Below, piece after piece: positions 32,797 through 51,498 of a DNA stretch of 64,000 nucleotides. Source of the stretch: an uncultured Bryobacteraceae bacterium (GTDB lineage: Bacteria; Acidobacteriota; Terriglobia; Bryobacterales; Bryobacteraceae); NCBI GenBank assembly GCA_938027685.1, contig CALJAM010000029.1, forward strand, positions 1 through 64,000, given 5' to 3'. Positions within the stretch are counted from its first letter, which is position 1. Each line of letters starts with the position of its first letter. Made by a program: the position numbers and the translations under genes. Under the pieces are notes generated by a model. That model was not told the DNA's origin, searched no databases, and was given only the letters and a program-made list of their open reading frames with translations.

Positions 32797-33684
32797 TCAT
32801 CGCACCTCGTAGTTGTCGCGCAGGAACTGCTCGACCTCGCCGCGTGTGGCGCGCAAGGGGCCTTCGGCTTCCAGCTTCAGACTGGTGACGGCCGCGGCCC
32901 ACAGCGTCGCCTGCCAGGGGGAGGCGCCCTCCAGACGGCGGCACAGGTAGGCAGCGATGCATGTATCGCCCCGCCCGGAACGGCCGCGCAGTTCGCGGCA
33001 GCGGAAGGGAGCGGCGTGAAGCGTGTCGCCGGCGAGCGCCAGCACGCCTTCCCGATGCGTGATGACGACCTCGCGCGGTCCCCAGGCAGTAATGCGGCGC
33101 GCGGCTGCAACGGGATCCTCCTCACCGGTCAGGGCTGCGGCCTCGACCGCGTCTGCCTTGAGCAGGTCCAGCGCGCCCAAGACGGCATCGCGCTCCGCCC
33201 AGGGCGTGAAGCGCAGCGTTCGGTCGGGACCGACCTCGCGCAGGAAGCCTTGCGCGTCGGCCGCCAGCCATTCGGCTTTCGGGCGCAGCTCCCGCACGAC
33301 CTCGAGCGGGATCTCGCCGCGGAACGAGCCGTTCAGTAGCCAAGCGCGCCCAGCCAGCAGGCGAACCTGCTCGGGGCTGAACGGGCCGGCGTCGGAGGAG
33401 ACGGCAATGACGCGCTCGTCGGGATCCGAACTCGGGTAGCGCAGCTCGAGACCGGTGGACTCCGGGCTCCAGGCGGGGAAGACGGCTACGCCGAGGCTTC
33501 TCAGCCGTTCGACGACGCGGCGGTCTTCCCAGGCCAGGCGCGTGACGGCCGCGGCGCGCAGTCCCATCATGGCGGCCACGTGCGCGCCGTAGTTGAAACC
33601 GCCGCCGTCGACCCTGCGCACGCCGGCTGGGGAAACGATGGTGTCCTTGGTGTAACTTCCGATGAACACAATGTCGTATGTCAT
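32797..33684 (-). CDS. PfkB-family carbohydrate kinase of the inositol operon
   Basis: A 295-residue ribokinase-like sugar kinase. The N-terminal GGGFNYGAHVAAMM (27-40) and C-terminal GRSGRGDTCIAAYL, with catalytic Asp240 in the anion-hole loop GRGD, are the two PfkB signatures. It is the last gene of the minus-strand inositol operon, 24 bp after the OPA transporter. A PfkB kinase occupies a comparable place in the Thermotoga maritima TM0412-TM0416 inositol cluster (TM0415). The phosphorylated intermediate is not known to me; a keto-aldonate or inositol derivative is likely. Confidence 0.88.
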   Translation of the reverse strand: MTYDIVFIGSYTKDTIVSPAGVRRVDGGGFNYGAHVAAMMGLRAAAVTRLAWEDRRVVERLRSLGVAVFPAWSPESTGLELRYPSSDPDERVIAVSSDAGPFSPEQVRLLAGRAWLLNGSFRGEIPLEVVRELRPKAEWLAADAQGFLREVGPDRTLRFTPWAERDAVLGALDLLKADAVEAAALTGEEDPVAAARRITAWGPREVVITHREGVLALAGDTLHAAPFRCRELRGRSGRGDTCIAAYLCRRLEGASPWQATLWAAAVTSLKLEAEGPLRATRGEVEQFLRDNYEVR

Positions 33685-33708
33685 GCAGCGCCTTGGTAAG
33701 CCGACTTA

Positions 33709-35058
33709 TCAATCCGCCGGACGCGCGCGCCAGAGCGAAGTCGCCAGGATGAGCGAAACCACGGAGGCGCCGATCCAGAAGAGCACCGGGTAAGTGAAAT
33801 CGTAGTGGCGGACGCCGTCGACGAAGTAAGTGCCGCGCTGGATGAGGTAGCCGCTGATGCGCTCCTGCACGGCGGCGCCGAGGTAACCGAAGATGCCCAA
33901 GACGCCCATGACGGCGCCGGCAGCGCGCTTGGGCACGATATCCACCGCGAACAGGCCGCCGAGCGAAGTGATCAGACCATTGATCGAGAGGCCGTAGACC
34001 AGGAAGGCGGCGGTAAGCACCAGCGGATGATGCGCGGTGAAGATGACGACGAGCGAGGCGATCTCCAGCAGGCCGCAGAGCAGATTGACCGGCGGCCGAC
34101 GCGCGTTGAAGAGCTTGTCCGAGACGAAGCCGTACGCCACGCAGCCCACGATGCCGGCCAGGGGGTTGAGCGCCAGCAGCGCGCCGGCCTGGAGGTCGGA
34201 GTAGCCCTTGGTCTCCTGGAAGAAGAGCATGCCCCAACTGTTGACCCCGTAACGCGTCATGGTCATGGTGGCGCAGGCGAAGCCCAGCACCCAGACGGCC
34301 GGCAGCTTCAGGATGGAGAGCTGAACCTGAAAGGTGGAGTGCGAACGCGCAGCTTCGAGAGCGACCCCGCGCTCGCCCTTCCATTCGTTCACCGAAGGAA
34401 GCCCGAGCGTTTCGGGCCGGTCGCGCATGCTGAAGTAGAGGACAAGAGCGACCGCGACGCAAAGCAGACCAGGCCCGATGAAGCCGCCGCGCCAGCCGAA
34501 CCAGGTCACCAGCGCAGCAAGCCCCACGAAGGTGAGGCCTTCGCCCAGCGAGTGAGCGGTGCTCCAGATGCCGTAGATGCGGCCGCGTTCGCTATGACTG
34601 AACCACTGGGTCATGGCGACGACGCCGGAGGGCGCGCCGAATCCTTGGAACCAGCCGTTCAGCGCCCACAGCACCACGGAGAGCCAGAGCACGGTGGATC
34701 CGCCCATGGCGATGTTGAGCAAGGCCGAAACGAGTACCCCCGTAGGCCAGAAGATGCGAATGTTGGCGTGATCGGCGAGGAAGCCGTTGATGCACTTACC
34801 CAGGGCGTATCCGTAGAAGATGGCGGAGCCGATGAGGCCCAGCTCTTCGGCGGTGAAGATGCCGCCGTCGATAAGAGGCTTCTTCACCACGGAGAGGCCG
34901 AGCCGGCAGGTGTAGGCAAGGCCGTAACCGATGGTGATCGACAGGAGCACGGAAAGCCGCGCGCGGCGGTAGAGGCGGTCGATCTCCTGCGCGTCCCGCA
35001 GACGGGGACGAGGTGAACCTGCAGCGAACAAGCGGAGCACGCGGGTCAATGCCAGCAT
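33709..35058 (-). CDS. MFS transporter of the organophosphate:phosphate antiporter (OPA) type
   Basis: A 449-residue membrane protein with about twelve hydrophobic segments. The first segments (ITIGYGLAYTCRLGLSVVKK followed by ELGLIGSAIFYGYALGKCIN and GFLADHANIR) follow the GlpT/UhpT pattern, whose members exchange glycerol-3-phosphate or hexose-6-phosphate for inorganic phosphate across the inner membrane. Its position between the inositol dehydrogenase and the kinase suggests that the substrate may be an inositol phosphate or a phosphorylated catabolite; this is inference. The gene is 15 bp from iolG and 24 bp from the kinase. Confidence 0.88.
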   Translation of the reverse strand: MLALTRVLRLFAAGSPRPRLRDAQEIDRLYRRARLSVLLSITIGYGLAYTCRLGLSVVKKPLIDGGIFTAEELGLIGSAIFYGYALGKCINGFLADHANIRIFWPTGVLVSALLNIAMGGSTVLWLSVVLWALNGWFQGFGAPSGVVAMTQWFSHSERGRIYGIWSTAHSLGEGLTFVGLAALVTWFGWRGGFIGPGLLCVAVALVLYFSMRDRPETLGLPSVNEWKGERGVALEAARSHSTFQVQLSILKLPAVWVLGFACATMTMTRYGVNSWGMLFFQETKGYSDLQAGALLALNPLAGIVGCVAYGFVSDKLFNARRPPVNLLCGLLEIASLVVIFTAHHPLVLTAAFLVYGLSINGLITSLGGLFAVDIVPKRAAGAVMGVLGIFGYLGAAVQERISGYLIQRGTYFVDGVRHYDFTYPVLFWIGASVVSLILATSLWRARPAD

Positions 35059-35073
35059 CCCTCGGAAGTCGGC

Positions 35074-36096
35074 TCAGGCCGGGATCTCGTCGAGCCGGAC
35101 CGGACGACGCTCGCGGGCCGAGCCTGCGGCAGCCAAGGCGATCCGGACGGCGGCGAGCCCATCCTCGCCGGTTACGGGCATGGGTTTGCCGTCGAGCACG
35201 GCGTCTACGAAGGCCTGCATCTCGCGCAGGTAGGATTCGGTGTAGCGCTCCATGAAGAAATAGAGCGGCAGCGAGGCGTGCGCGCCGGTCGAATCGAAGA
35301 GTATGTGGGTGTCGGGCGTGTTGTTGGAGACGGCGACCATGCCCTCGCTGCCGAAGACTTCGACGCGCTGATCGTATCCGTAGACCGCCTTACGACTGTT
35401 ATCGATGGCGCCCAGTGCGCCGCTCGCAAAGCTGAGCAGGGTGACGGCCGTGTCCCAATCGCCGGCGCGCTCGAACATAGGATCGACCAGCACGGCTGTG
35501 CGGGCAAAGACCTCGACGACCTCGCTGCCGACCAGGAAGCGGGCCATATCGAAGTCATGGATGGTCATATCGAGGAAGATGCCGCCCGAGCCGCGGATGT
35601 AACTTTCCGGGGGCGGCGCAGGGTCGCGGCTGGTAATGCGTAGGACGTGGGGCACCCCGATCTTGCCCGCGCGCACGAGCTCGTGGACCTTGGCGAAGTT
35701 GGGATCGAAGCGCCGGTTGAAGGCCACCATGAGCTGAACGCCGCAGGCAGCGACATGGCGGTTGACGTGGCGGATCCGCTCGATCTCCAGGTCCACCGGC
35801 TTTTCGCAAAAGATGTGCTTGCCAGCGTCGGCAGCGTCGAGCAAGATCCGGTAGTGCGTGTCCGTGGGGGTGCAGACCGCCACGGCATCGACATCAGGCA
35901 GCTCGAGGGCTCGGCGGTAATCGGTGTAAGTGCGCGTGATCCCGAGCCGCGAGGCCAGCGCCGCGAGCGCGTCGGCCGAGACGTCGGCCAGGGCGACCAC
36001 CTGGGCGCGCGGAATCCGTGTGGCGAGATTGGCCGCGTGGATCCTGCCGATGCGGCCTGCACCAAGGACAGCGAATCGCAGCTTCTCTTCAGGCAT
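35074..36096 (-). CDS. iolG: myo-Inositol 2-dehydrogenase
   Basis: A 340-residue Gfo/Idh/MocA dehydrogenase oxidising myo-inositol to 2-keto-myo-inositol (scyllo-inosose) with NAD. Motifs: GAGRIG at 12-17, CEKPVD with Lys99, and DMTIHD with Asp176 and His180. The Lys, Asp and His correspond in order and spacing to the catalytic triad of Bacillus IolG. The central stretch NRRFDPNFAKVHELVRAGKI is characteristic of the IolG subgroup rather than generic oxidoreductases. Start 36096 is chosen because AAGGAAGGAG lies 9 bp upstream; the longer frame is ignored. It is flanked by the IolO-like gene (4 bp upstream) and the OPA transporter. Confidence 0.9.
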   Translation of the reverse strand: MPEEKLRFAVLGAGRIGRIHAANLATRIPRAQVVALADVSADALAALASRLGITRTYTDYRRALELPDVDAVAVCTPTDTHYRILLDAADAGKHIFCEKPVDLEIERIRHVNRHVAACGVQLMVAFNRRFDPNFAKVHELVRAGKIGVPHVLRITSRDPAPPPESYIRGSGGIFLDMTIHDFDMARFLVGSEVVEVFARTAVLVDPMFERAGDWDTAVTLLSFASGALGAIDNSRKAVYGYDQRVEVFGSEGMVAVSNNTPDTHILFDSTGAHASLPLYFFMERYTESYLREMQAFVDAVLDGKPMPVTGEDGLAAVRIALAAAGSARERRPVRLDEIPA

Positions 36097-36100
36097 GACG

Positions 36101-36937
36101 TCAGACTCCTTCCTTGTCCACTCTGGCGCCGGATGAGAGATCATGCACGGTCTTGACGCCCTGGCGCAAGGCGGCGACCGGGTCGGGAATAGGGAACACC
36201 TCGAAAGAAAGGAATCCCTGATAGCCGGAACGGGCCAGCAGATCGAGCAGCGGAGCAAAATCGAGGTGGCCGCGGCCCGGGGCCTGACGATTGGAATCGG
36301 CCAGATGGACGTGACCCAATTGCGGCAGGGCGGCGGCCAGCGCAGCCGGCATGTCGGCTTCCTCGATGTTCATGTGAAAGGTGTCGGCGAGCAGGCGCAA
36401 GTTGGGCGCCCGGATTTCCTCGGCCACGGCGAGGACGTCGGCGATGGTATTGAGGTAATCGCATTCGTAGCGGTTCAGGGGCTCCAGCAGGATGGTGACG
36501 CCGTGCGATTCCGCATAGCGGCAGAGCTCGGCCAGCGCGTCCAGGGCGGCGGCGCGTCGCTCGCGGCGCGTGGCTGCATCGGGCCCCAGGCGGCCGCTGA
36601 CGCTGCCCACGGTCACGGCCGACCCGATTTCGGAGGCGAGCCGCACGTGGCCGCGGAGGCGGTCCACAGCCAGCCGGCGCACGACCGGGTCGGCGAAAGT
36701 GAGCCCGTCGAGCGTGGCAGCCATGCCGGTGCCGAGGGTGGGCACGGCAAGACCGTAGTCGGACATCAGCCGACGAACCGTAGGGGCATCAACTTGGGAG
36801 GCCTCGCGCAGGTGGATTTCGACGCCGCGGCAGCCGCACTCGGCCGCGAGGCGGAAAGCGCCCGCCAGGTCGCCGCGCACCAAGATCGGCGCGCAGCGGA
36901 CCTCGGCGGGCGTGGCGGTCAACGCGAGGGGAAACAT
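36101..36937 (-). CDS. TIM-barrel sugar epimerase/isomerase, IolO-like
   Basis: A 278-residue xylose-isomerase-like TIM barrel (AP endonuclease 2 superfamily). The expected metal ligands are Glu152 in LLEPLNRYECDYLN, Asp185 and His188 in LLADTFHMNIEE, His211 in HVHLADSNRQAPGRG and Glu246 in FLSFEVFP. In Thermotoga the TIM-barrel protein of the inositol cluster (IolO, TM0416) epimerises 5-keto-L-gluconate to D-tagaturonate, and gene context argues for the same step here. IolE/IolI-type enzymes of the Bacillus pathway and D-psicose epimerases share the fold and cannot be excluded by sequence alone. Start 36937 lies 12 bp after the IolN-like gene. Confidence 0.8.
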   Translation of the reverse strand: MFPLALTATPAEVRCAPILVRGDLAGAFRLAAECGCRGVEIHLREASQVDAPTVRRLMSDYGLAVPTLGTGMAATLDGLTFADPVVRRLAVDRLRGHVRLASEIGSAVTVGSVSGRLGPDAATRRERRAAALDALAELCRYAESHGVTILLEPLNRYECDYLNTIADVLAVAEEIRAPNLRLLADTFHMNIEEADMPAALAAALPQLGHVHLADSNRQAPGRGHLDFAPLLDLLARSGYQGFLSFEVFPIPDPVAALRQGVKTVHDLSSGARVDKEGV

Positions 36938-36948
36938 CGTGGCAGCGC

Positions 36949-38052
36949 TCAGACGTCGAGAATGGGCGGCAGACCGTACACGGACTTCCAGCCGGGACTC
37001 AGCGGCTCCCGAAGGTACGGCTCCAGCTCCGCCGGATCGCGCAGGCTGACGTCGCTGGCGGCGGGGACCTTGCCCGGCGGGAAGGCTTCCAGCCACTCCT
37101 CGATGAGCAGCGTCAGGTAGCGAAGGATCGCGGCCACGGGCCGCTTGGCCTTGCGGGCCTCGCCGAGGGTGGGCTTGCCGACGACGCCTTCGGGCGTGCC
37201 GGAGATCTCGAAGGCGGCGTGGCCCTCGCTTTCCGACCAACGGCTGGGACGGCCGAAGGCATCGACGGCCGTATCCATGTGGCCGCCCGGCAGCAGAGCC
37301 TTCGGTTCGGTTTCGACCGCGCGGCTCATGTCCACCATGTCGGGGAACAGCAACAGGCCGACGGAGGTTTCGGCTTCGTCGGCGTGGATGAAGTTGGTCT
37401 CCCAGTCGCCGCCGCGATCGCGCGTGCGCCACATCTCGCGCACGGCGCGGTGCCAATCGATGACGCGGTAGATGCCGGGCAGCTGATAGCGCTTGACGAA
37501 CTGCTGGAGGGCGGCTTCCAGGACCCAAAGCTGGCCGTGGTTGTTGAGAATGATCTGCTTGCGGAAGCCGTCGTTCCACAGCCCGAGCATGACGTCGATC
37601 AGCAGTTCGCGGGCCACGTTTTCGCGCACGATGACGGTGCCGGGCATGCCGATGTGATGCGCGGGGTGGCAGCCGTACATGAGCGGCGGCAGGGCCAAGG
37701 CGACGGGCCGGCCCTGGCGGGCGAAGTAGCGGCGGACGCCCTCGGCGATCATGCTGACGAAGAGGGTGTCCATGGCCGAGACGGTGTGGGCGCCGTGCAG
37801 TTCGGTGGAGCCCACGGGAATGATCACGACGTCGTTCTTGCGACGCTGAGCCTCGAGCTCATGGCGGATGGTGGTCTGGATGTAGGAGCCGGCCTTGGCC
37901 CACTCGCAACCCCCGGGGGCGGGGATGCCGTACTCGGCCAGGATGGCGTCCAGCTTGGCTTCGTCCGCCTCCCAGATTTCCTTTTTCATGCGCCCGACCG
38001 GAGTATCTTCGAAATAGAGATCCGGCTGGTTGGTGGCAAGCCACTTAGTCAT
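36949..38052 (-). CDS. iolN: Creatininase-family hydrolase, IolN-like (3-dehydro-scyllo-inosose hydrolase)
   Basis: A 367-residue metal-dependent amidohydrolase-fold protein of the creatininase family. Ligand motifs: PVGSTELHGAHTVSAMDTLF with Glu84, His86 and Asp95; CHPAHHIGMPGTV near 128-140; NNHGQ at 170-174; and HADEAETS. The long N-terminal extension (about 70 residues before the core) and the neighbours match IolN, which hydrolyses the diketo-inositol ring to 5-keto-L-gluconate in the Thermotoga pathway. AAGGAG precedes the ATG. It is 36 bp downstream of the IolM-like gene. Plain creatininase activity is unlikely given the operon. Confidence 0.85.
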   Translation of the reverse strand: MTKWLATNQPDLYFEDTPVGRMKKEIWEADEAKLDAILAEYGIPAPGGCEWAKAGSYIQTTIRHELEAQRRKNDVVIIPVGSTELHGAHTVSAMDTLFVSMIAEGVRRYFARQGRPVALALPPLMYGCHPAHHIGMPGTVIVRENVARELLIDVMLGLWNDGFRKQIILNNHGQLWVLEAALQQFVKRYQLPGIYRVIDWHRAVREMWRTRDRGGDWETNFIHADEAETSVGLLLFPDMVDMSRAVETEPKALLPGGHMDTAVDAFGRPSRWSESEGHAAFEISGTPEGVVGKPTLGEARKAKRPVAAILRYLTLLIEEWLEAFPPGKVPAASDVSLRDPAELEPYLREPLSPGWKSVYGLPPILDV

Positions 38053-38088
38053 GACGATAACTCCTTTTCTGCCCTATTTTTTCACGAA

Positions 38089-39273
38089 TTACGAAAAGAC
38101 GCAGGTGATCTTGCAGTGCGTCTTGTCGGTCTGAAGCAGGACGATATGGTCAGGGACCTCGTCCAGGCCGATTTTTTTGGTGATGATCGGGGTAATGTCC
38201 ATGCCGGCGGCCATGCAGGAGATGACGCGCGGGAAGGTGCCATAGCCGGAGTGGCCCTGGGCCCCGGCGATTTTGGCCTTCTTGACTTCGTAGACCTCGC
38301 AGTTGATCGGCGGGTTGATGGGAGCGCGGGCGACCAGGACGATCTTGGCGCCGATGAACTTGCCGTACCAGATGGCCTCCTCCATCTGAGGGAGGACCTT
38401 GTCGGGCAGTCCGGTCGCTTCCAAGTAAAGCGCCGCACCCAGTCCGCCGGTATATTCCAGGACTTTCTCGGCGAAGTTCTCGGTGAGCGGGTTGATCACG
38501 TGGTCGGCGCCGAGACGGCGGCCCAGCTCGGCGCGGGATTCCGAGGGTTCGCTGAGGATGACCTTGGCGGCGCCGGCGCGCTTCATGACGGCGACCGCGG
38601 CCAACCCGATGGGACCGCCGCCGCAGATGACGGCGTGGTCGCCGGGGCGGATCCCGCCGCCGCACTCAATGACGGCGTTGTAGGCGACCGAGGTGGGTTC
38701 CACGAGGCTGCCGGCGAGAAACAATTCGTCGCCGGGGTAGCGATCGCGCAGCTCGGCGAGGCTCCACAGGTAACGAGCGTCGATGGCGATGTAAGGAGCG
38801 AAAGCGCCGGGGACGCTGAAGCCCATTTCCTGCAACTGCTCGCACTGGTTGGGATTGCCCTCGGCGCAGGGGCGGCAGTAGGAGCACCAGAACATTTCCT
38901 CGGAGCAGACGGGTTCGCCGGGCTCGAAACGGCGGCCGGTGCGTTTGTTGTAGGCGCGCTCGCCCGCTTCGACGACGACACCCGACATCTCGTGGCCCAG
39001 TACGACCGGAAAAGCAGTCAGTCCGGGATAGAGAGTGTAGCCTTCGCTGTCGGTCTGGGCCATGTGGACGTCGCTGCCGCAAATGCCGCAGGCCTTGACC
39101 TGAACCAGGCACTCGGTGGGCCCGATCTTCGGGGTTTCGCGTTCTTCGACGGAGAGCTTGGGGTATCTCCAGACCATGCTGCCCAGGTAAGTGAGCTTGC
39201 CGTCGATATCTTTGGGTCCCAGCCGGAAACCAGGCCTGGGTTCCCATTTGGCGGACAAAACCACAGTCTTCAT
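38089..39273 (-). CDS. iolM: Zinc-dependent scyllo-inosose 3-dehydrogenase, IolM-like
   Basis: A 394-residue medium-chain zinc alcohol dehydrogenase. Catalytic zinc ligands: Cys65 in ACGICGSDVH and His94-Glu95 in LGHEMSGVV. Structural zinc ligands: Cys130, Cys133, Cys136 and Cys144 (C-x2-C-x2-C-x7-C). The nucleotide fold contains AVICGGGPIGLAAVAVM. The long N-terminal segment before the GroES-like core (EPRPGFRLGPKDIDGKLTYL) and the length match Thermotoga TM0412 (IolM), which oxidises 2-keto-myo-inositol to a diketo-inositol. AAGGAGG lies 6 bp before the ATG at 39273. It precedes the IolN gene, the same adjacency as in Thermotoga. Confidence 0.88.
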   Translation of the reverse strand: MKTVVLSAKWEPRPGFRLGPKDIDGKLTYLGSMVWRYPKLSVEERETPKIGPTECLVQVKACGICGSDVHMAQTDSEGYTLYPGLTAFPVVLGHEMSGVVVEAGERAYNKRTGRRFEPGEPVCSEEMFWCSYCRPCAEGNPNQCEQLQEMGFSVPGAFAPYIAIDARYLWSLAELRDRYPGDELFLAGSLVEPTSVAYNAVIECGGGIRPGDHAVICGGGPIGLAAVAVMKRAGAAKVILSEPSESRAELGRRLGADHVINPLTENFAEKVLEYTGGLGAALYLEATGLPDKVLPQMEEAIWYGKFIGAKIVLVARAPINPPINCEVYEVKKAKIAGAQGHSGYGTFPRVISCMAAGMDITPIITKKIGLDEVPDHIVLLQTDKTHCKITCVFS

Positions 39274-39351
39274 CGCAAAGCCTCCTTGGGTGAAGTTAGT
39301 AGATTGCATGGGTTCCGGTCTCGCTCCCGGGCGTGCGGCGACGAGCCGATC

Positions 39352-40293
39352 CTAGCGCAGAAACTCATGGGCGTTCTCCCGGGTAACCAGGCCGGTGCCG
39401 ATGTCAACGAACCTCTCGACGGGCAGGCCGCGGGCTGCCTTGATGGCTTCCTGAACGGCGCGACGGCCGATGCGCTCCGGGAACTGGGCGACAACGGCAT
39501 CCATACGTCCCTCCATCACGGCACGCACGGCTTCGCGGCCGGCATCGAAACCCACCAGCACGATTCGGCCCGTCAGGTTGCGCGCGGCGATCGCCTCCAT
39601 CGCGCCCAGGGCCATCTGGTCGTTGGTGGCGAAGACGGCACGCAGGTCGGGGTGGCGCGTAAGCAGGTTCTCCATGACGGTCATGCCGAGGGGGCGCTCG
39701 CTATTAGCCGGCTGCGCGCCGACGAACCGGACGCCGGGCGCCTTGCTTACCACGTCGAGGAAACCGGCCAGGCGATCCTCCTGGGTAGCGACCCCCAACA
39801 CGCCGCGGATGACGGCGACCTTGCCGCGTCCGCCGATGGCGCGCAGGATGAATTCGGCGGCCATGCGGCCGCCCAGGCGGTTGTCGATGCCGACGAAGCC
39901 CGCGCGGTGGGGCCAGGGAATATCGGTATCCACGATGAGCACCGGGATGCGGGCGGCGCGGGCCTTCTCGAGCACGGGGATGATCTCGGCCACGCCGGCC
40001 GGGGCCACGGCGAGAGCGGCCACGCGCTTGAGAATCTGGTCTTCCAGGATGGCGACCTGCTGGTCGATGTTGATTTCACGCTCCGGGGCGAGCACCGCGA
40101 GGCGCACCTCCGGGTCCTCGCGCGCGGCCTGTTCGGCGCCGGATTTCAGGCGCTGCCAGAACTCGGAGTCGAGCGCCTTGGTGACCAGAACAATATCCAG
40201 CTTTTTTGTTCGATTGGCCCGCGAGCAACCCGCGGCCAGGATGACGCTCAGCAGGGAAACGGCGAGAACGACGCTGCGAGATGAGAGCATCAT
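39352..40293 (-). CDS. Sugar ABC transporter substrate-binding lipoprotein (RbsB-like)
   Basis: A 313-residue periplasmic binding protein of the ribose/galactose type. A lipoprotein signal ends in the lipobox LAAGC. The mature part has the two-lobed pattern: DIVLVTKALDSEFWQRLKSG, QILKRVAALAVAPAG, IPVLIVDTDIPWP, FVGIDNRLGGRMAAEFIL and FATNDQMALGAMEAI. Inositol and inositol-phosphate binding proteins belong to this class, fitting the operon. ATG at 40293 overlaps the permease stop by 4 bp (ATGA). Ligand identity (inositol versus a phosphate ester) is not visible in the sequence. Confidence 0.9.
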   Translation of the reverse strand: MMLSSRSVVLAVSLLSVILAAGCSRANRTKKLDIVLVTKALDSEFWQRLKSGAEQAAREDPEVRLAVLAPEREINIDQQVAILEDQILKRVAALAVAPAGVAEIIPVLEKARAARIPVLIVDTDIPWPHRAGFVGIDNRLGGRMAAEFILRAIGGRGKVAVIRGVLGVATQEDRLAGFLDVVSKAPGVRFVGAQPANSERPLGMTVMENLLTRHPDLRAVFATNDQMALGAMEAIAARNLTGRIVLVGFDAGREAVRAVMEGRMDAVVAQFPERIGRRAVQEAIKAARGLPVERFVDIGTGLVTRENAHEFLR

Positions 40294-41264
40294 GGACTCC
40301 TCTGCGCGGCGCGCTGGCGCACCACGTCCACCCAGACCGCGGCCACGATGACCGCGCCGATGACGACGGTCTGCCAGTAAGCGGAGACATCGAGAAGGTT
40401 GAGCCCGTTGCGCAGCACGCCCATAATGAGCGCCCCCACCAACGTTCCCAGCACGGTGCCCACCCCGCCGAAGAAGCTGGCACCGCCGATGATGACGGCT
40501 GCGATCGAATCCAGCTCGGCCCCCACGCCGGCCAATGGGAAGCCGGAATTCATGCGGCCGGCGAGAATCACGGCACCGGCGCCGGCCATCAGACCGCTGA
40601 GCGCGTAGGCCAGGATGAGGCGCCGGTCTACGGGCACGCCGCAAAGCAGGGCCGCCTGGCGGTTGCCGCCGATGGCGTACAGGTCGCGGCCGGGCGTGGT
40701 TCGAGTCAGGAAGAGGTGGAACAGAAGGCAGAAAACCAGCACGACGACGACGGGCATGGGCACGCCCGCCAGCGTGCCCGCACCCCAGTAGCGGAACGAG
40801 GAGGGCAGCTCGGAGATGGGGAAGCCCCCCGTGAGGACCAAGGCGAGCCCGCGCGCCACGTTCATCATGCCAAGGGTAGGAATGAAGGGGTGCGGAAGCC
40901 GGAGCTTGGTGAAGAGGATGCCGTTCAGCGCGCCCAAAGCGGCGCCTGCTCCCAATGCGATCAAAATGGCGGCGGCGGAAGGCACACCGGCTTTCAGGGC
41001 CATGGCGGCGAGCACGCAGCAGAGCCCGAGCAGGGAACCGACCGAAAGGTCAATGCCGGCCGTGATGATCACCGTGAGCTGGCCCAGGGCCAGCAGGGCG
41101 TTGACTGCGGACTGACGGAAGACGTTCAAGAGGTTGTCGACAGTGAGGAAGTGCTCGGAGAGCAGGGCCAGCGCGGCGCACATCAGCAGGAGCGCCAACA
41201 AGGGGCCGAAGCGGCGCAGGACGCCGGAGAGCGTACGAGCGAGCCAGGAGGCCTCGGAGTTCAT
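40290..41264 (-). CDS. Sugar ABC transporter permease (RbsC-like)
   Basis: A 324-residue inner-membrane permease with eight to ten hydrophobic segments. The CUT2 family pattern is seen in ITAGIDLSVGSLLGLCCVLA, GFPISELP, IGGNRQAALLCGVPVDR and AVIIGGASFFGGVGTVLGTL. It forms the channel of the importer with the ATPase, whose stop overlaps its start by 4 bp (ATGA), and with the lipoprotein, whose start overlaps its stop. One permease gene implies a homodimer. Confidence 0.93.
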   Translation of the reverse strand: MNSEASWLARTLSGVLRRFGPLLALLLMCAALALLSEHFLTVDNLLNVFRQSAVNALLALGQLTVIITAGIDLSVGSLLGLCCVLAAMALKAGVPSAAAILIALGAGAALGALNGILFTKLRLPHPFIPTLGMMNVARGLALVLTGGFPISELPSSFRYWGAGTLAGVPMPVVVVLVFCLLFHLFLTRTTPGRDLYAIGGNRQAALLCGVPVDRRLILAYALSGLMAGAGAVILAGRMNSGFPLAGVGAELDSIAAVIIGGASFFGGVGTVLGTLVGALIMGVLRNGLNLLDVSAYWQTVVIGAVIVAAVWVDVVRQRAAQRSP

Positions 41265-43761: not shown

Positions 43762-43770
43762 ACGTGTCCA
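43758..43770 (-). promoter_or_regulatory. Predicted LacI-family operator O1
   Basis: On the minus strand TGGACACGTTTGC lies immediately after the -10 and overlaps the TTG start of the repressor gene. It has the central ACGT common in LacI/GalR operators and differs at a single base from the site at 43860-43872. Confidence 0.6.
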
Positions 43771-43799
43771 TTGTATGCGAGGCCCGAGCCGGCTGTCAA
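43770..43799 (-). promoter_or_regulatory. Promoter of the inositol operon
   Basis: On the minus strand a perfect -35 TTGACA (43794-43799) and TACAAT (43770-43775, 5 of 6) are spaced 18 bp. This is one of the strongest promoter-like sites in the window and lies directly before the regulator gene and operator O1. Confidence 0.8.
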
Positions 43800-43822
43800 C
43801 GGGTTTGCGGATGCGTTTGGCC

Positions 43823-43851
43823 TTGACAGGAGCCCGCCGGGGGTGTAAGGT
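43823..43851 (+). promoter_or_regulatory. Promoter of the receptor-phytase operon
   Basis: TTGACA (43823-43828, perfect) and TAAGGT (43846-43851, weak) with 17-bp spacing. The expected start is near 43858, next to operator O2 and about 128 bp before the receptor ATG. Confidence 0.6.
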
Positions 43852-43859
43852 AAGCAGCG

Positions 43860-43872
43860 TGGACACGTCTGC
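43860..43872 (+). promoter_or_regulatory. Predicted LacI-family operator O2
   Basis: TGGACACGTCTGC lies at about +2 to +14 of the rightward promoter. It matches 12 of 13 positions of the site at the leftward promoter and is in the same position relative to that promoter, which supports one repressor acting on both divergent operons. Confidence 0.6.
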
Positions 43873-43985: not shown

Positions 43986-46900
43986 ATGAGGTTTTCAAGC
44001 TGGAGTCGGCGCCGGGCGGCGCCGGCAGTGCTAGCGGTGTGGCTGACGATTCCCGGCAGCCTGCGGGGGCAGTTTGAAACCGCGACCGTGCTGGGCACCC
44101 TCCGCGATCCAACGGGCGCGGTGGTGACCCGGGCCAAGGTCACGCTGGAGAACCTGGACACGGGCATCACGTCCGTCACCCAGACGGACGAGATGGGCAA
44201 CTACTACTTCTTTAACGTGCGCGTGGGAACCTACCGGGTGCGGGCGGAGGCGCCCGGCTTCAAGCTGGCGGTGGCCGACGCCTTCTCGGTCGCGGTTGCC
44301 GCCCGGCAGCGCGTGGATCTGACGCTGGAGGTGGGCACGGCGACCGAGAGCATCACGGTCACCGGCGCGGCGCTGGCTCTGGAAACAGAAACGAGCTCGC
44401 GCGGCACGATCGTGAGCACGCAGCAGGTGGTGAACCTGCCGCTGAACGGGCGGGCGTACGCGGACCTGGCGCTTCTGGCCCCGGGCGTGCGGCGCAGCGT
44501 GATTGCCAGCTCTCGCGACGCCTCGTTCAACGTGAACGGGATGCGCAGCTCGCAGAACAACTTCCTGCTGGACGGCGTGGACAACAATGCCTACGGGACC
44601 TCGAATCAAGGCTTCTCGAATCAAGTGGTGCAGATCACGCCCGACGCCATGCAGGAATTCCGGCTGGAAACGAACAACTTCAGTGCGGAGTACGGCCGGG
44701 CCGGCGGGGCGGTCATCAACGCCACCATCCGTAGCGGGACCAACGAATTTCACGGGGCGCTGTGGGAGTACATCCGGAACACCCGACTGAACGCTACGGG
44801 ATTCTTCAAGCCGGTGCAAAACCGCAAGCCGGTGTTGATCCAGAACCAGTTCGGCGGGGCGCTGGGCGGTCCCATCCGCCGCGAGAAGGCCTTCTTCTTC
44901 GCCGATTACGAGGGCTTCCGGAGGGTGTCGCGCACGGTGACCTTCGCCACGCTGCCCACGCTCGACATGCGCAGAGGCCTTCTGGGCGTGCCCATCATGA
45001 ACCCGTACACCGGGGAGCGGTACATGGACGGCGTGGTGCCGGAGCGGGTGATCACGCGCTTTGCGCGCGAGGTGCTGAACGACCTGCCGGCCCCCAATCG
45101 TCCGGGCCTGGCGAACAATTTCCAAAGCGAGCCGCGGCGCACCGAACAGACCGACAAGGGCGACATCCGGCTCGATTACTATTTCAGCTCCAAGCTCACG
45201 GGTTTCCTGCGTTACAGTCACCGGCTTATGAACAACTTCGAACCGCCGGCGGTTCCGGGTCCTTCGGGCGGCAACGCGAACGCGGACGTGCGAGTGATGA
45301 ACTGGCAGTGGGCCTGGGGAGGCACTTACACGCTGAGCCCGACCGCGCTGATCGAGTTCCGCATGGGCGTTTCGCTGACCGAGGGCGGGAAGTTCCCGAT
45401 GTTCCGCGGAACTCCGACGATCGGCGAGCGGTTCGGGATCCCGAACATTCCCAAGCACCCGCTTTATACGGGCGGCATACCGGCCCAGAACATTACCGGT
45501 TTTACGCAGTTGGGCATCCAGTCGAGCAACCCGCAGTTCCAGAATCCGTTCGTGGTGAATCCCAAGTTGAATTACGCGAAGGTCGTCGGCCGGCATTCGC
45601 TCAAGATGGGCTACGAGCACCAGCGCATCAACACGGACATCGAGGACTTCCATCCCAAGTACGGCCGCGACAGTTACGGAGGCCGGTTTTCGCGGGTTCC
45701 GGGCACGCCGACCTCCGACATGCAGTATCTGGCGGACTTTCTGTTCGGTGCACGGTCGCGGTACGAGTTGACGAATTTCCAGGTGATGGACTACCGCCAG
45801 AGGATGCATTTCTGGTACCTACAGGACGACATCAAGGCGACGCCGCGCCTGACTCTGAACGTGGGAGTCCGTTACGAGTTCGCCACGCCCCAATACGAGG
45901 GGCAGAACCGGATTACCAACTTCGACGCGGTAGCGGTCAAGCTGGTGCAGGCGGAGCCGGGTTCGTTGTATCGCCGGGCGCTGGTACACCCGGACAAGAC
46001 CAACTGGGCGCCGCGCGTGGGGCTGGCTTACACGCTGACCCGTCGCACGGTGATTCGGACGGCGTACGGCATCAGTTACATGCATTTCCACCGACTGGGC
46101 GGGGAAAACATCCTGGCGTACAATCTGCCATGGATCCTGAATCCGATCATCGACCAATTGCCGCCGACGGTAGCGGGGTCGGGCCTGCCGCTCTGCACCA
46201 GCACACGTCAGAGTCCGTTCGAGTGCTTCCGCACGACGGAGATGGGCTACCCGGACAACTTCCTCTCGCTGGCGAACATCAACGTGATCGGCGTGCGGAC
46301 CAACCACATCCCTCCCAATACGCCCACGGCCTACACACAGAGCTGGCATTTCACGATCCAGAGGGAGCTGGCGCGGGATCTGGTTCTGGACCTGGCCTAC
46401 GTAGGGAACCGTAGCGTGCACCTGCCGATTCTGGGCGATTACAACCAGGCGAGGCCCAACCAGCCGAACGAGAATCTGCCGGTTCAGGCGCGGCGGCCTA
46501 TTCAGAACTTCGGTTACATTCAGATCTGCTTCAACGGCGGCTTCCTGAACTATCACGCCTTTCAGTCCAAGCTGGAGCGGAGGTTGGCGGGCGGTTTCTA
46601 CCTGCTGAACTCCTTCACCTGGTCGAAGGGGATCGACAACGCCTCGGGACACCTGGAGGCACACAACGGCGACAACTCGCGCGTGAACTATCGCGACCTT
46701 AAGAACGAGAAGGGCGTCTCGGGTTATCACCAGCCTTTTATCAACGTGACCACAGTGCTGTGGGATCTTCCCTACGGAAGGGGCCGAAGGTTCGGGGCCT
46801 CGGCGCATCCTGTGCTCAACGGGGTCCTCGGGGGCTGGCGGCTGGCCGTGATCAACTTTGCTTACGCGGGAATGCCGGTGAACCTGAGTTATAATCCGGC

Positions 46901-47285
46901 CTCGCAGTTTCAGGTGAGCTCGGCGCCTACGTACCGGCCGAACATCACAGGCGATCCGATGATGCCGAAGGGCGAGCGGCGCGCGGAGCGTTGGTTGAAC
47001 CCGGCGACGGTACAGATTCCGACCGATCCTTCGCGGCCGTTCGGCAACGCGGGTCGCAACATCGCCGTGGGACCGCCGCTGCATCAGATGAATTTCGGTC
47101 TGCACAAGGATTTCCCGGTGCGGGAGGCGCGGCGGCTCGAAGTGCGCATGGAGGCGTTCAATTTCCTGAACAAGACAAACCTGGGCACGCCGAACGGCAA
47201 CCGCTCGAGCGCGGCCTTTGGTACGATTTCGTCGCTGGCGCAGCCGGCGCGGGAGGTTCAGCTCGCGGTGCGGTACGCGTTTTGA
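43986..47285 (+). CDS. TonB-dependent receptor (carboxypeptidase-regulatory-like/plug/barrel), first of the phytase operon
   Basis: A 1099-residue outer-membrane protein with signal peptide to about residue 29. A carboxypeptidase-regulatory-like domain follows at about 30-115 (TVLGTLRDPTGAVVTRAKVT, YYFFNVRVGTYRVRAEAPGF). A plug-like region spans about 120-240 (VVNLPLNGRAYADLALLAPG, NNFLLDGVDNNAYG, EYGRAGGAVINATIRSGTNE), and the rest is a long beta barrel ending in aromatic VRYAF. This is the Oar-like class abundant in acidobacteria. AGGAGG lies upstream of the ATG. Transcription is predicted from the LacI-controlled promoter at 43823. Located two genes ahead of a phytase, it is a candidate importer of inositol phosphates or of the complexes they form. 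Confidence 0.9.
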   Translation: MRFSSWSRRRAAPAVLAVWLTIPGSLRGQFETATVLGTLRDPTGAVVTRAKVTLENLDTGITSVTQTDEMGNYYFFNVRVGTYRVRAEAPGFKLAVADAFSVAVAARQRVDLTLEVGTATESITVTGAALALETETSSRGTIVSTQQVVNLPLNGRAYADLALLAPGVRRSVIASSRDASFNVNGMRSSQNNFLLDGVDNNAYGTSNQGFSNQVVQITPDAMQEFRLETNNFSAEYGRAGGAVINATIRSGTNEFHGALWEYIRNTRLNATGFFKPVQNRKPVLIQNQFGGALGGPIRREKAFFFADYEGFRRVSRTVTFATLPTLDMRRGLLGVPIMNPYTGERYMDGVVPERVITRFAREVLNDLPAPNRPGLANNFQSEPRRTEQTDKGDIRLDYYFSSKLTGFLRYSHRLMNNFEPPAVPGPSGGNANADVRVMNWQWAWGGTYTLSPTALIEFRMGVSLTEGGKFPMFRGTPTIGERFGIPNIPKHPLYTGGIPAQNITGFTQLGIQSSNPQFQNPFVVNPKLNYAKVVGRHSLKMGYEHQRINTDIEDFHPKYGRDSYGGRFSRVPGTPTSDMQYLADFLFGARSRYELTNFQVMDYRQRMHFWYLQDDIKATPRLTLNVGVRYEFATPQYEGQNRITNFDAVAVKLVQAEPGSLYRRALVHPDKTNWAPRVGLAYTLTRRTVIRTAYGISYMHFHRLGGENILAYNLPWILNPIIDQLPPTVAGSGLPLCTSTRQSPFECFRTTEMGYPDNFLSLANINVIGVRTNHIPPNTPTAYTQSWHFTIQRELARDLVLDLAYVGNRSVHLPILGDYNQARPNQPNENLPVQARRPIQNFGYIQICFNGGFLNYHAFQSKLERRLAGGFYLLNSFTWSKGIDNASGHLEAHNGDNSRVNYRDLKNEKGVSGYHQPFINVTTVLWDLPYGRGRRFGASAHPVLNGVLGGWRLAVINFAYAGMPVNLSYNPASQFQVSSAPTYRPNITGDPMMPKGERRAERWLNPATVQIPTDPSRPFGNAGRNIAVGPPLHQMNFGLHKDFPVREARRLEVRMEAFNFLNKTNLGTPNGNRSSAAFGTISSLAQPAREVQLAVRYAF

Positions 47286-47394
47286 GGCGGGCGGCCGGCC
47301 GGCAATGTGGAGGTCCGCGCGTACCGCGGGGATTGAATGTCTGCACCGGGCCGCCGGGCGGCCCGGAGCGAAGGCAGACGGACGGGAGGCAAGA

Positions 47395-50367
47395 ATGAGG
47401 TTAGTCTCGGTTCTGAGCATTATCCTGCTGGCCGCAGGGTGGTTATGCGGTCAGGGCACTCTGGCCACTTTGAACGGGACCGTCACGGACCCAACCGGCG
47501 CAATCATCGCGGGAGCCACGGTGGCGGCCGAGCATGAGGAAACCGGTCTGAGGCGGCAGGTGACCACCTCAGCCGCAGGGACCTACGTGGTCGCGCAATT
47601 GCCCATCGGCACGTGGCGGGTCACAATCGAGGCGCCCGGGTTCCGGCCGGTGCGCTTCGAAAAGATCGTGCTTCAGGTAGGCGACGTGCGGACCCTGGAC
47701 GCACAGCTCGAGGTAGCGACGATCCGGGCTGAAGTCGAGGTGCGGGAGACACCGGTCCCGCTGGAGCGTACGACGGCGGCCCTCGGCACGGTGATCGCTT
47801 CGCAACAGGTGCGAGAGATCCCATTGAACGGGCGGCACTGGGCGAGCTTGATGGCGCTGGCGCCGGGAGCGATCAACACCGGCGACGGTAGTCAGCAGAC
47901 CATCCGCTTCGTGGGACGAGCTCGGGATGACAACAATTGGACCTTCGACGGCCTGGACGCCACCGGGGTCAAGGATCCGCGCCAGGAGGCCGCGCTGCGG
48001 TTGATCATTTCGACGGACGCGATCGCCGAGTTCCGGGTGAATGCCAGCCTGTATTCGGCCGAATTCGGCGGCGGGGCGGGAGCGAACGTGAGCCTGGTCT
48101 CCAAGTCGGGGACCAACGAGTTCCACGGAAGCCTGTTCGAGTTCGTGCGGAACGACAAACTGGATGCGCGCAACTTCTTCGATGCGGCCAAGCCGGCCTT
48201 TCGGCTGAATCAGTTCGGCGGTAATCTGGGCGGACCGATCGTGCGCAACCGCACCTTTTTCTTCGCGAACTACGAGGGACTAAGGCAGCGGTTGGGGCAG
48301 ACGCTTTACGCCAGTGTGCCGAGCGCCGCCTATCGGGAGCGGGCGCTGGCCACCTCGCCGGCCGTCCGTCCCATCATCGAGGCTTATCCGAAGGGAATGC
48401 GGCCGCTGGCCGATCCCAACATCGACGAGCTCTGGGTCAACCGATCACAGGCCTGGCGCGAGGACTCCGGTATGCTGCGCATTGATCATCGTGTCACGGA
48501 TTCCGACCTTTTGTTCGGACGCTTCAACGTGGACGACGGACTGATTGACGCACCGCGCAGCGTGCTAGAGGTGGACCGACAGGAGAGTGCGTTCCGGCCG
48601 TCTAGCTTTGCGTTGCAATACCAGCGAATTTTTTCGCCCACGGTGATCAATGAGTATCGAGCGGGATACAACCGCTCGGCGCTGACCCGTTCCAGTTACG
48701 GTCCCCTGGGCCCTTCGATCAGCGTGCCGGGATTCATGACCCTGAACAGCACCAGCCTGCTGATCGAGAAGCCGACCTCGTACTCGATGATTGACAATGT
48801 GACGTTAACCAGGGGCCGGCACACACTGAAGATGGGGGTGGAAGTGCGCCGGGTCCATGTGAACGTCGCGGACCCGGCAGTGCACACGACATCGATCACT
48901 TTCGCCAGCCGCGACGATCTGGTCCGCAACCGGGTGGATTCTTTCAGCATCAACGCGGGCAGTCCGGTGCTGGGGGCGCGGCGCACGTGGCTGATGGGTT
49001 TCCTCCAGGACGATTTCAAGGTGCGGCGGAACCTGACGCTGAACATGGGCGCCCGGTACGAATACTACTCAGTGCCGCACGAAGTGAATCGACAGGAGCG
49101 GGTGTTCGACATGTGGGCCTGCCAGGGCTTCTGTCCGCCGGGTACGCCCTGGTTCTATCCGGATCGCAACAACATTGACCCGCGGGTGAGCATCGCCTGG
49201 GCGCCGGCAGCGCTCGGCGACAAGACGGTGTTCCGCGTCGGCGCAGGGGTATTCCACGGGCCGGGTCAAAACGATGATGTGAACGCCTCGCTGGATAACA
49301 TGGCGGAGCGCTATTCGCTGACGGCGCGGGACGTGACGGGCGGATTGAGTTTCCCCATCGATCGTTTCGTGCCGCTGGCGCGGTCGGGCGGGGTGACGCC
49401 GCGGTCGCTGCAGCGTGATCGCCGGGATATTTACAACATCCAGTGGGGTTTTTCCGTGCAGCAGCAGTTGCCCGCGGAGTTCATCATGCAGGTGGGTTAT
49501 CTGGGCAACCAGGGACACAAGCTGTTCGCGCGAACCTACATCAACGTGATCGATCCGGCGCTGGGTCGGCGGCCGCTGCCGGCATTCGGGCGGATAGACG
49601 AGAAGCGTAATGACGGCAACTCGAACTTCAACGCGTTGCAGGTCTCGCTGCATCGACGGTTCCGCGAGGGGTTCCTCTGGGGGACCGAGTACATGTGGTC
49701 GCATGCCATCAACGACGGGAACCTGGGCGGCGGGGAAGGCGCAGCGCCGCAGAACGTCAAATGCCGAGCTTGCGACCGCGGCAACAGCGCGCAGGACATC
49801 CGACACACCATCACCAGCAACTGGGTGCTGGAGTTGCCCTTCGGGCGCGGCAAGAGGTACGCGACCCACGGTACGGCGGCCAGACTGCTGGGCGGTTGGG
49901 AGCTGAGCGGGATCTGGACAGCGCGGACGGGTCGCGCAGTGAACATCAGCGTGTCGCGCAGCTCCTCGGCAGTGCCCGACGGCAATACGTCGAACCAGCG
50001 ACCCGACGTAGTATACGGCGTGCCGATGTACCCTCCGAATCGGACCAAAACCGAGAATTGGTTGAACATCGCGGCGTTTGCGACGCCGCGTGCGGGCACG
50101 TGGGGCAACGCGGGCCGGCACATTGCGCGGGGGCCGGGCCTGGTGCAGGTGGATCTCGCAGTGCACCGCAAGTTCCAACTGACTGAAAAGGCCAACCTGG
50201 CTTTTCGGGTCGAGTCGTTCAACTTGTTCAACCGTGCGCAGCTTGGCGATCCGAGCGCGAACATTTCGACGCCGGCGACGTTCGGACAGATTCGCAGCCC
50301 GCTGAACCGCACGATCGGCACGGGCACCTCCCGGCAGGTCCAGCTTGCGTTGCGGTTGAATTTCTAA
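47395..50367 (+). CDS. TonB-dependent receptor, second of the phytase operon
   Basis: A 990-residue Oar-like receptor. Signal MRLVSVLSIILLAAGWLCGQ is followed by a carboxypeptidase-regulatory-like domain (LNGTVTDPTGAIIAGATVAA, YVVAQLPIGTWRVTIEAPGF), a plug-like part (VREIPLNGRHWASLMALAPG, WTFDGLDATGVKD, EFGGGAGANVSLVSKSGTNE) and a barrel ending LALRLNF. Start 47395 has GGGAGG upstream; the longer in-frame extension into the previous gene is not used. It follows the first receptor by 109 bp and precedes the phytase by 39 bp. The two receptors are clearly different proteins, so this is not a recent duplication. Confidence 0.9.
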   Translation: MRLVSVLSIILLAAGWLCGQGTLATLNGTVTDPTGAIIAGATVAAEHEETGLRRQVTTSAAGTYVVAQLPIGTWRVTIEAPGFRPVRFEKIVLQVGDVRTLDAQLEVATIRAEVEVRETPVPLERTTAALGTVIASQQVREIPLNGRHWASLMALAPGAINTGDGSQQTIRFVGRARDDNNWTFDGLDATGVKDPRQEAALRLIISTDAIAEFRVNASLYSAEFGGGAGANVSLVSKSGTNEFHGSLFEFVRNDKLDARNFFDAAKPAFRLNQFGGNLGGPIVRNRTFFFANYEGLRQRLGQTLYASVPSAAYRERALATSPAVRPIIEAYPKGMRPLADPNIDELWVNRSQAWREDSGMLRIDHRVTDSDLLFGRFNVDDGLIDAPRSVLEVDRQESAFRPSSFALQYQRIFSPTVINEYRAGYNRSALTRSSYGPLGPSISVPGFMTLNSTSLLIEKPTSYSMIDNVTLTRGRHTLKMGVEVRRVHVNVADPAVHTTSITFASRDDLVRNRVDSFSINAGSPVLGARRTWLMGFLQDDFKVRRNLTLNMGARYEYYSVPHEVNRQERVFDMWACQGFCPPGTPWFYPDRNNIDPRVSIAWAPAALGDKTVFRVGAGVFHGPGQNDDVNASLDNMAERYSLTARDVTGGLSFPIDRFVPLARSGGVTPRSLQRDRRDIYNIQWGFSVQQQLPAEFIMQVGYLGNQGHKLFARTYINVIDPALGRRPLPAFGRIDEKRNDGNSNFNALQVSLHRRFREGFLWGTEYMWSHAINDGNLGGGEGAAPQNVKCRACDRGNSAQDIRHTITSNWVLELPFGRGKRYATHGTAARLLGGWELSGIWTARTGRAVNISVSRSSSAVPDGNTSNQRPDVVYGVPMYPPNRTKTENWLNIAAFATPRAGTWGNAGRHIARGPGLVQVDLAVHRKFQLTEKANLAFRVESFNLFNRAQLGDPSANISTPATFGQIRSPLNRTIGTGTSRQVQLALRLNF

Positions 50368-50406
50368 AAGCCCCAAGAGGCGGCGAGGTCAACTGGAGCG
50401 AAAGGA

Positions 50407-51498
50407 ATGAGTGCGGGAGTACTGGCGCTTGTACTTTGGCTGGCGGTGCAGGGGAAGATCGAGGTACGGCCGACGCTGGCGACGGAGCCGGTGAGCGACG
50501 ATCCCGATGATCCGGCCGTATGGGTGAATCCGCAGGACCCGGCGAAGAGCCTGATCGTAGCAACGAACAAAGTGGCCGCGCCGCGCGGCGCGCTGTATGT
50601 CTATGGGTTGGACGGCAGGATCCGGCAGGTGATCGACAACCTGAATCGGCCTAACAACGTGGACGTGGAGTACGGGATGCTGCTGGGTGGGCAGCGAGCG
50701 GACATCGCGGTAGTGACCGAAAGAATGGAGCGGCGGCTGCGCGTGTTCCGCATCCTGCCCGAGGGCCGACTCGAGGATGTCTCCTCGCTCGAAGGTCTGC
50801 GCGTCTTCGAAGGCTGCCAGGGCGAGCAGGCTGCGCCCATGGGCGTTGCGCTCTACCGGCGGCCGCGAGACGGAGCGGTTTTCGCGATCGTGAGCCGGAA
50901 AGAGGGGCCGCGCGAAGGCTATCTCTGGCAATATAGGCTCGTGGATGACGGCGCCGGTCGGGTGCGGGCGGAGAAAGTGCGCGAGTTCGGGCGTTTCAGC
51001 GGCCAGGCTGAAATCGAGGCGGTGGCGGTGGACGACGAGCTGGGCTACGTTTATTACGCCGACGAAGGCGACGGGATCCACAAATATCATGCCGATCCCG
51101 ATCATCCGGGGGCGGCGCGCGAGCTGGCCCATTTCGGTCGGGAGGGGTTCCAGGGGGATCGCGAGGGCATCGCAATTTACACGCTGCCCGGCGGGCGCGG
51201 TTACATTGTCTGCACGGACCAGTTACCGGGCAACAGCAAGTATCATGTGTACCGGCGGGAGGGAGCACCGGGCCGACCGCACGATCACTCCCGGCTGCTG
51301 AAGGTCTTCTACGGCGGAGCGGATGAGACCGACGGGATCGAGGTCGTTTCGGCGCCGCTGGGATCGGCGTTCCCCCACGGCCTGATGGTGGCGATGAACA
51401 GCGGCCCCAAGAACTTTCTCATTTACCGCTGGGAGGATATCGCGAGAGCGGGCGGCGTTCGGCTGCGAATCAACGGGCGCGGAGGGCCGCGGCGCTGA
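50407..51498 (+). CDS. Beta-propeller phytase
   Basis: A 363-residue phytase of the beta-propeller (BPP, alkaline, calcium-dependent) family, which removes phosphates from myo-inositol hexakisphosphate. Family landmarks match Bacillus-type phytase in order: SDDPDDPAVWVNP, LYVYGLDGR, RPNNVDVEYGMLLGGQRADI, SGQAEIEAVAVDDELGYVYY followed by ADEGDGIHKYHADP, DREGIAIYTLPGGRGYIVC, and DETDGIEVVSAPLGSAFPHG. A short hydrophobic N-terminus (GVLALVLWLAVQG) may be the export signal. GGAG precedes the ATG with 8-bp spacing, and the gene is 39 bp behind the second receptor. The divergent operon degrades inositol, so phosphate and carbon are both plausibly recovered. Confidence 0.93.
   Translation: MSAGVLALVLWLAVQGKIEVRPTLATEPVSDDPDDPAVWVNPQDPAKSLIVATNKVAAPRGALYVYGLDGRIRQVIDNLNRPNNVDVEYGMLLGGQRADIAVVTERMERRLRVFRILPEGRLEDVSSLEGLRVFEGCQGEQAAPMGVALYRRPRDGAVFAIVSRKEGPREGYLWQYRLVDDGAGRVRAEKVREFGRFSGQAEIEAVAVDDELGYVYYADEGDGIHKYHADPDHPGAARELAHFGREGFQGDREGIAIYTLPGGRGYIVCTDQLPGNSKYHVYRREGAPGRPHDHSRLLKVFYGGADETDGIEVVSAPLGSAFPHGLMVAMNSGPKNFLIYRWEDIARAGGVRLRINGRGGPRR

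Follow-up and report, generated by a model that had tools for sequence, protein, structure and literature searches.

The analysed DNA, referred to as the window, is a 64,000-nucleotide stretch (contig C29) from an uncultured Bryobacteraceae bacterium with a genome of 3.93 Mb and 96.7% completeness. It carries a ten-gene inositol operon on the minus strand, divergent from plus-strand genes for two TonB-dependent receptors and a beta-propeller phytase (Table 1). The operon encodes a LacI regulator, the ATPase, permease and binding lipoprotein of a CUT2 importer, IolM, IolN, an IolO-like epimerase, IolG, an OPA transporter and a PfkB kinase. Open reading frame (ORF) calls and profile searches found all 13 genes on the strands given in a preliminary description of this DNA. 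Its IolM, IolN and IolG assignments also stand: all three proteins, encoded in one operon, exceed the curated NCBIfam cut-offs. The ensemble is likely a dedicated and conserved locus, controlled by LacI, for the consumption of phytate or related inositol phosphates.

Table 1. Genes and predicted regulatory elements of the locus (positions in the window)
Feature	Position	Strand	Evidence
PfkB-family kinase, probably pyrophosphate-dependent TM0415 type	32797..33684	-	phmmer to TM0415 chains 6.3e-47, 1.5e-45
OPA-family organophosphate:phosphate antiporter, predicted inositol-phosphate importer	33709..35058	-	GlpT 1pw4 7.5e-52
IolG, inositol 2-dehydrogenase	35074..36096 (refined start 36096)	-	TIGR04380 453 bits, cut-off 355
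IolO-like epimerase	36101..36937 (refined start 36937)	-	NF041099 221 bits, below cut-off 300
IolN, 3-dehydro-scyllo-inosose hydrolase	36949..38052	-	NF041098 309 bits, cut-off 245
IolM, scyllo-inosose 3-dehydrogenase	38089..39273	-	NF041097 497 bits, cut-off 450
CUT2 sugar-binding lipoprotein (SBP)	39352..40293 (refined start 40293)	-	PF13407 3.8e-58; lipobox-like LAAGC
CUT2 permease	40290..41264	-	PF02653 6.5e-41
CUT2 ATPase, two ABC domains	41261..42745	-	PF00005 2.3e-57, two stretches
LacI-family regulator	42742..43761 (possible TTG start 43761; longest ORF to 43908)	-	PF00356 and PF13377
Predicted operator site 1, TGGACACGTTTGC	43758..43770	-	at end of minus-promoter -10
Sigma-70-like promoter of iol operon, TTGACA-N18-TACAAT	43770..43799	-	score 11/12
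Promoter-like element of receptor-phytase operon, TTGACA-N17-TAAGGT	43823..43851	+	under promoter-scan threshold
Predicted operator site 2, TGGACACGTCTGC	43860..43872	+	just past plus-promoter -10
TonB-dependent receptor 1	43986..47285	+	PF25183
TonB-dependent receptor 2	47395..50367 (refined start 47395)	+	PF25183
Beta-propeller phytase	50407..51498	+	PF02333 2.6e-50
Nickel-dependent putative hexonate epimerase (LarA family), probable locus member	52997..54277	+	NF052594 616 bits, cut-off 500

The linkage of phytase and inositol genes recurs in other genomes. Of 305 relatives obtained by scanning genome contigs with an IolN alignment, the best 80 were retained, with loci reaching at most 10 kb from iolN; neighbour genes in GC-rich relatives were mapped by tblastn. 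These best 80 loci contained IolM in 64, IolO in 63, IolG in 56, PfkB in 18 and OPA in 10 cases, nine of the latter together with PfkB. Only one included a phytase within its limits. Whole-genome phytase searches covered 78 genomes (L111 and L131 share record sets with L103 and L128) and found PF02333 in 12 of these IolN genomes. All but one of these 12 genomes have the phytase next to parts of this system. It is located on the IolN contig in G411, G418, G423, G432 and G436. One contig of G396 holds LacI, both receptors, the phytase and the beginning of the hexonate epimerase. The phytase contig bears LacI in G416 and G453, IolM in G424 and G425, and a permease, LacI and a receptor in G454. 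A TonB receptor lies alongside in G411, G418, G423, G432, G436 and G454. Altogether, phytase and IolN share a contig at a distance of 9.6-14.1 kb in seven genomes (G000, G411, G418, G423, G432, G436 and G515). The proposed search for phytase genes near iolMN clusters was positive in these genomes, with a weak outcome in an even draw across the phylum (see below). The phytase of G418, G424 and G425, next to IolM, is of another type, with 27-28% identity to that of the window; the linkage is kept nonetheless. A window-type phytase was also present on a 3.5-kb contig of G562 (C463, L200), a genome without an IolN match.

Co-occurrence was counted in a draw of 147 genomes from the class of G432. 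Ten had both IolN and phytase, two IolN only, two phytase only and 133 neither; each protein was thus found in 12 genomes (Fisher p 4.5e-12, or 7.5e-13 after dropping G477, a marginal phytase-only genome with 20.8 bits). The class draws for IolN and phytase were treated as one set, as the listed genomes agree. The p values are neither phylogeny-corrected nor from a wholly blind sample, because the draw includes all ten class genomes already brought in by the IolN scan and several are close relatives.

A promoter scan of 19.5 kb gave two sites, of which the minus-strand promoter scored higher; shuffled sequences yield 1.7, so that the count is no excess. The motif TGGACACGTYTGC was derived from the two window sites themselves. 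Sites 1 and 2 are its only exact matches in the whole genome, where about 0.23 are expected at equal base use. Independent support for the operator comes from conservation in RSWS6, because the motif was read off the window sites. RSWS6 is a Bryobacteraceae metagenome-assembled genome (MAG) and the nearest named relative found (IolN 95% identical, L070). Its site 1 lies inside a 20-base identical run and its site 2 is TGAACACGTATGC; much of the surrounding DNA has diverged. The claim of matching operators at both promoters is borne out by these sites, and the predicted operator is common to both divergent operons, as in a LacI regulon. A wider regulon was sought genome-wide with one or two mismatches, without an excess over the reversed control (57+62 vs 64+59 sites at two mismatches).

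Relatives have a different operator. A scan for CG-centred palindromes in nine loci revealed TTGGAACGTTCCAA-type sites in six. Two to three copies are found close to the point from which receptor and lacI diverge, and G418 has them upstream of iolM-phytase as well; the loci of the window, RSWS6 and G411 had none. TTGGAACGTTCCAA was then searched in 20 whole genomes: 15 had been selected because they carry IolN, phytase or both, and five of the same class gave no hits to either. Eight exact sites were present in seven of the 20 genomes, every one on the phytase contig, and none in the five controls. Three genomes lacked this operator even when one mismatch was allowed: that of the window, RSWS6 and G411 (Ignavibacteria). 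Only exact sites were taken as evidence, because one-mismatch sites also fall on other contigs (G436, G453, G515, G562, G424, G441 and the control G494).

Recurrent linkage and shared LacI-type operators reject a chance neighbourhood and support the earlier claim that phytase, receptors and inositol catabolism belong to one regulon. Phytase and receptors could also be an ordinary phosphate-controlled scavenging pair that landed beside an inositol operon. Such pairs exist: a phytase adjoins a TonB-dependent receptor in Citromicrobium (PMC3400609), and Flavobacterium johnsoniae has the low-phosphate-induced pair Fjoh_1367/1368, with PF02333 in Fjoh_1367 (PMC8115612); the available text of both mentions no inositol genes. 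G242 and G333 encode a phytase with a homologue of receptor 2 and no iol gene was seen on their short contigs (5.7 and 10.3 kb). In contrast to the F. johnsoniae pair, that of the window is joined to ring catabolism, apparently under LacI. The phytase also follows lacI on the same strand in G432, G423 and G515. In view of this position, the linkage and the operators, a scavenging pair is very improbable. The locus is real and conserved, and it probably functions as one regulon; the link between phytase and iol genes looks functional because other genomes repeat it. Gene content, promoter-like elements, operator pair, linkage and shared operators were read directly from the DNA.

The enzymes and their regulators may have different histories. 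G411, titled Ignavibacteria, is closer to the forms of the G432 class (IolN 82-86%, OPA 65-69% and phytase 62-66% identical, leaving out the other-type phytase of G418 with 29%) than the window is (IolN 68-71%, OPA 61-63%, phytase 51-55%). The LacI proteins of the window, G411 and G432-class types share only 31-40% identity, and the linkage persists all the same. The resemblance of the G411 enzymes, with regulators so divergent, would fit an enzyme set that was transferred and came under different regulators.

The window phytase matches solved Bacillus-type phytase chains over nearly the full length (1cvm, residues 24-363, 3.2e-40). We take the active-site positions to be K76, R122, Y159, K179, E211, E227, D258, E260 and D314; eight of the nine are conserved and Y159 is replaced by methionine. 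K77 is a valine, and D308 aligns with a glycine in an uncertain stretch of the alignment. Other-type phytases have a glutamate at R122. These exchanges at Y159 and R122 may indicate a different natural substrate, either a lower inositol phosphate or the scyllo- or D-chiro-inositol hexakisphosphate found in soils; the enzyme would then be a phytase-like phosphatase. The sole NCBIfam model matched at E 1e-20, 'myxosortase-dependent phytase-like phosphatase', would agree, at a score far under its cut-off (147 vs 440). The eight conserved positions speak for phytate, and with another substrate the pathway would likewise lead to inosose, which also counts against the alternative. Another substrate is considered rather unlikely.

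Bacillus phytases are reported to yield inositol trisphosphate (InsP3) isomers (review PMC12482443), and further phosphatases are therefore probably needed. In G453 (L174 1239-2885), a PF01663 phosphodiesterase is encoded between phytase and lacI and may be a second phosphatase that acts on lower inositol phosphates. Receptor 1 has a 55% identical homologue beside iolM-iolN in G062, a genome without a phytase match. Homologues of receptor 2 (44-57%) are located beside the phytase in G242, G333 and, in pieces, G341. These neighbourhoods suggest inositol-type ligands for receptor 1 and phytate-type ligands for receptor 2. The G341 locus (L063 5715-9024) is decayed or misassembled: the phytase frame has an internal stop and the receptor-2 homologue is in several pieces.

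The kinase appears to be of the pyrophosphate (PPi)-dependent TM0415 type. Four of five residues of the TM0415 PPi signature are conserved (K171, F221, R229 and R232; M266 is a leucine), as are the acceptor residues D11, Q141 and R145. The three basic signature residues are present in all 25 PfkB rows compared, about 21 distinct genes, with L177/L092, L170/L106, L172/L110 and L199/L203 representing the same gene twice. TM0415 and a Levilinea homologue, No. 49, form inositol monophosphate with PPi (PMC5931981). The Km of TM0415 for inositol is poor (12 mM), and the authors doubt that inositol is the genuine acceptor of No. 49 and leave the true acceptor of the TM0415-type kinase open (PMC5931981). 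A PPi-using 2-keto-3-deoxygluconate (KDG) kinase of the lower pathway is possible instead, given LguH (PMC12632266). The acceptor residues of No. 49 (Leu, Leu, Ser) are close to those of the window kinase (Leu, Ile, Ser); KDG was among the acceptors screened, and for No. 49 the available text reports no active acceptor other than inositol (PMC5931981). The KDG kinase is thus the less probable assignment compared with an inositol kinase.

Arg52 and Arg269 of the OPA transporter align with two arginines of GlpT (1pw4), which presumably bind phosphate. Both are kept in all 16 rows covering both columns (12 distinct genes, the window included); L098 lacks the first column. The conservation suggests inositol-phosphate uptake as the likeliest role. 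Caulobacter takes up myo-inositol across its inner membrane solely through an ABC importer (PMC2597717). A more speculative and quite unlikely variant is that OPA imports the inositol monophosphate left by the phytase against phosphate and that the TM0415-type kinase runs in reverse, from inositol phosphate and phosphate to inositol and PPi, storing the phosphoester energy as pyrophosphate. With this pair, phytate would be an energy source besides a phosphorus and carbon source.

The hexonate epimerase is encoded directly 3' of the phytase in RSWS6 (L164), about 90 bases apart and cut by the contig end. In the window, a minus-strand gene separates them; it codes for a 417-amino-acid protein (51511-52764) with a signal-like N-terminus and no Pfam match. 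The close LarA form was observed in RSWS6 as well as in the window. Its position downstream of a phytase may hint at what this LarA subfamily (NF052594) acts on. A LarA-type gene as general partner of iolN was rejected: a distant homologue (27-31%) occurs in 14 of 80 loci, and none of four scanned reaches an NCBIfam model at E 1e-60.

The favoured reading, a phytate locus, can be drawn as a pathway. The polyanion, free or complexed with metal, would reach the cell surface or periplasm by way of the TonB-dependent receptors, and a secreted beta-propeller phytase would strip phosphates. Free inositol may enter via the CUT2 importer and inositol monophosphate probably via the OPA antiporter against phosphate. 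The PPi-dependent kinase would interconvert inositol and inositol phosphate, or phosphorylate an intermediate. The Thermotoga pathway proceeds in the order IolG, IolM, IolN and IolO; likewise, IolG, IolM, IolN and the IolO-like epimerase would open the ring towards D-tagaturonate, and the hexonate epimerase with unlinked enzymes probably finishes the route. LacI would keep the two divergent operons repressed in the absence of an inositol-type inducer. Secretion, substrates, transport direction, inducer and lower pathway are predicted in this scheme.

Several observations weigh against it. The epimerase is only IolO-like, as first described, scoring 221 on NF041099 (cut-off 300); its homologue in G432 passes with 310. 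The Thermotoga-type lower pathway has a UxaB-type tagaturonate reductase. The window's own 96.7%-complete genome has no match for it (PF08125), and seven of 14 control genomes do. The only altronate/galactarate dehydratase homologue found (PF04295) is unlinked, galactarate-dehydratase-like and below cut-off (352 bits vs 731); one KDPG-aldolase-family gene is also unlinked. 'Complete inositol catabolism', as proposed initially, is not upheld by the epimerase score, the missing reductase match and the dehydratase homologue. Y159 is a methionine in all window-type phytase rows covering that column. Palindromic symmetry of the window operator is poor (8 and 10 of 14), and the operator of the relatives is a different one; one-mismatch TTGGAACGTTCCAA sites occur twice in G441, which has IolN and no phytase match, and twice in the control G494. 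No PF02333 match was obtained in 66 of 78 IolN genomes. The phytase of G459 showed no link to the system within the 19 kb read, and that of G436 (L172 520-1399) matches in two pieces with a gap and may be broken in an otherwise typical locus. Many linked genomes are closely related (IolN 90-95% identical). In the even phylum draw of 396 genomes, IolN was over cut-off in 12, phytase was found in 16 and both in two, a weak association (p 0.08). Eight of these 12 IolN genomes have a different, higher-scoring IolN type (490-509 bits), none with a phytase match. With IolN in 12 and phytase in 16 of 396 genomes, the idea that the phylum generally carries the combination was rejected.

Two further genes lie near the locus. 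A MerR-type regulator with B12-binding domains (31755-32654, +) adjoins the end of the iol operon, and a third large PF25183 receptor (1221 amino acids; 57451-61116, +) is located outside the locus.

The inositol operon TM0411-TM0416 of Thermotoga maritima was reportedly described by Rodionova et al. in 2013. It resembles the window in the IolG-IolM-IolN-IolO set, of which the last member is IolO-like in the window, and in a PfkB kinase of the TM0415 type, predicted to be PPi-dependent in the window. It has a ROK-family IolR in place of LacI, and the available text mentions no phytase, TonB receptor or OPA antiporter (PMC5931981); the window additionally has a CUT2 importer. The lgu pathway of Luteolibacter starts from L-glucose or L-galactose, without mention of ring opening or phytase in the text available (PMC12632266). 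Among 18 phytate degraders from pigs, seven have no iol cluster and the remainder one; in contrast to the present locus, 'No conserved gene neighbourhood' of phytase genes was noted across genera (PMC12838507). Mitsuokella combines phytate dephosphorylation and inositol catabolism in one organism (PMC12482443). Klebsiella and Chryseobacterium isolates use phytate as sole carbon source; the terms 'gene cluster' and 'operon' are absent from the accessible text (PMC11219571). In Bifidobacterium and Anaerostipes the phytate chain spans species (PMC8355322). The main text of a large inositol survey does not mention IolM, Thermotoga, TonB or Acidobacteria (PMC9430895), nor does the available part of a marine inositol-phosphate paper mention TonB, operon, gene cluster or iolG (PMC12406696). 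The components are known; consistent with the preliminary description, no paper on a phytase within an iolMN cluster or on this combination was among the matches listed, in a search with most subscription journals outside its range.

Phytate is the main phosphorus store of plants and a large pool of soil organic phosphorus (PMC9430895, PMC9414882). Phytases are usually read as phosphorus scavengers. If the favoured reading is true, phytate is consumed in its entirety by some members of the Acidobacteriota and Ignavibacteria, represented here by MAG records, with phytase, uptake and ring catabolism coupled under one carbon-type regulator. Phytase, iolN, OPA, PPi kinase and operator could together serve as markers for environmental tracking. 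The locus also offers a possible physiological context for the TM0415-type PPi kinase, the acceptor of which was left open by its discoverers (PMC5931981).

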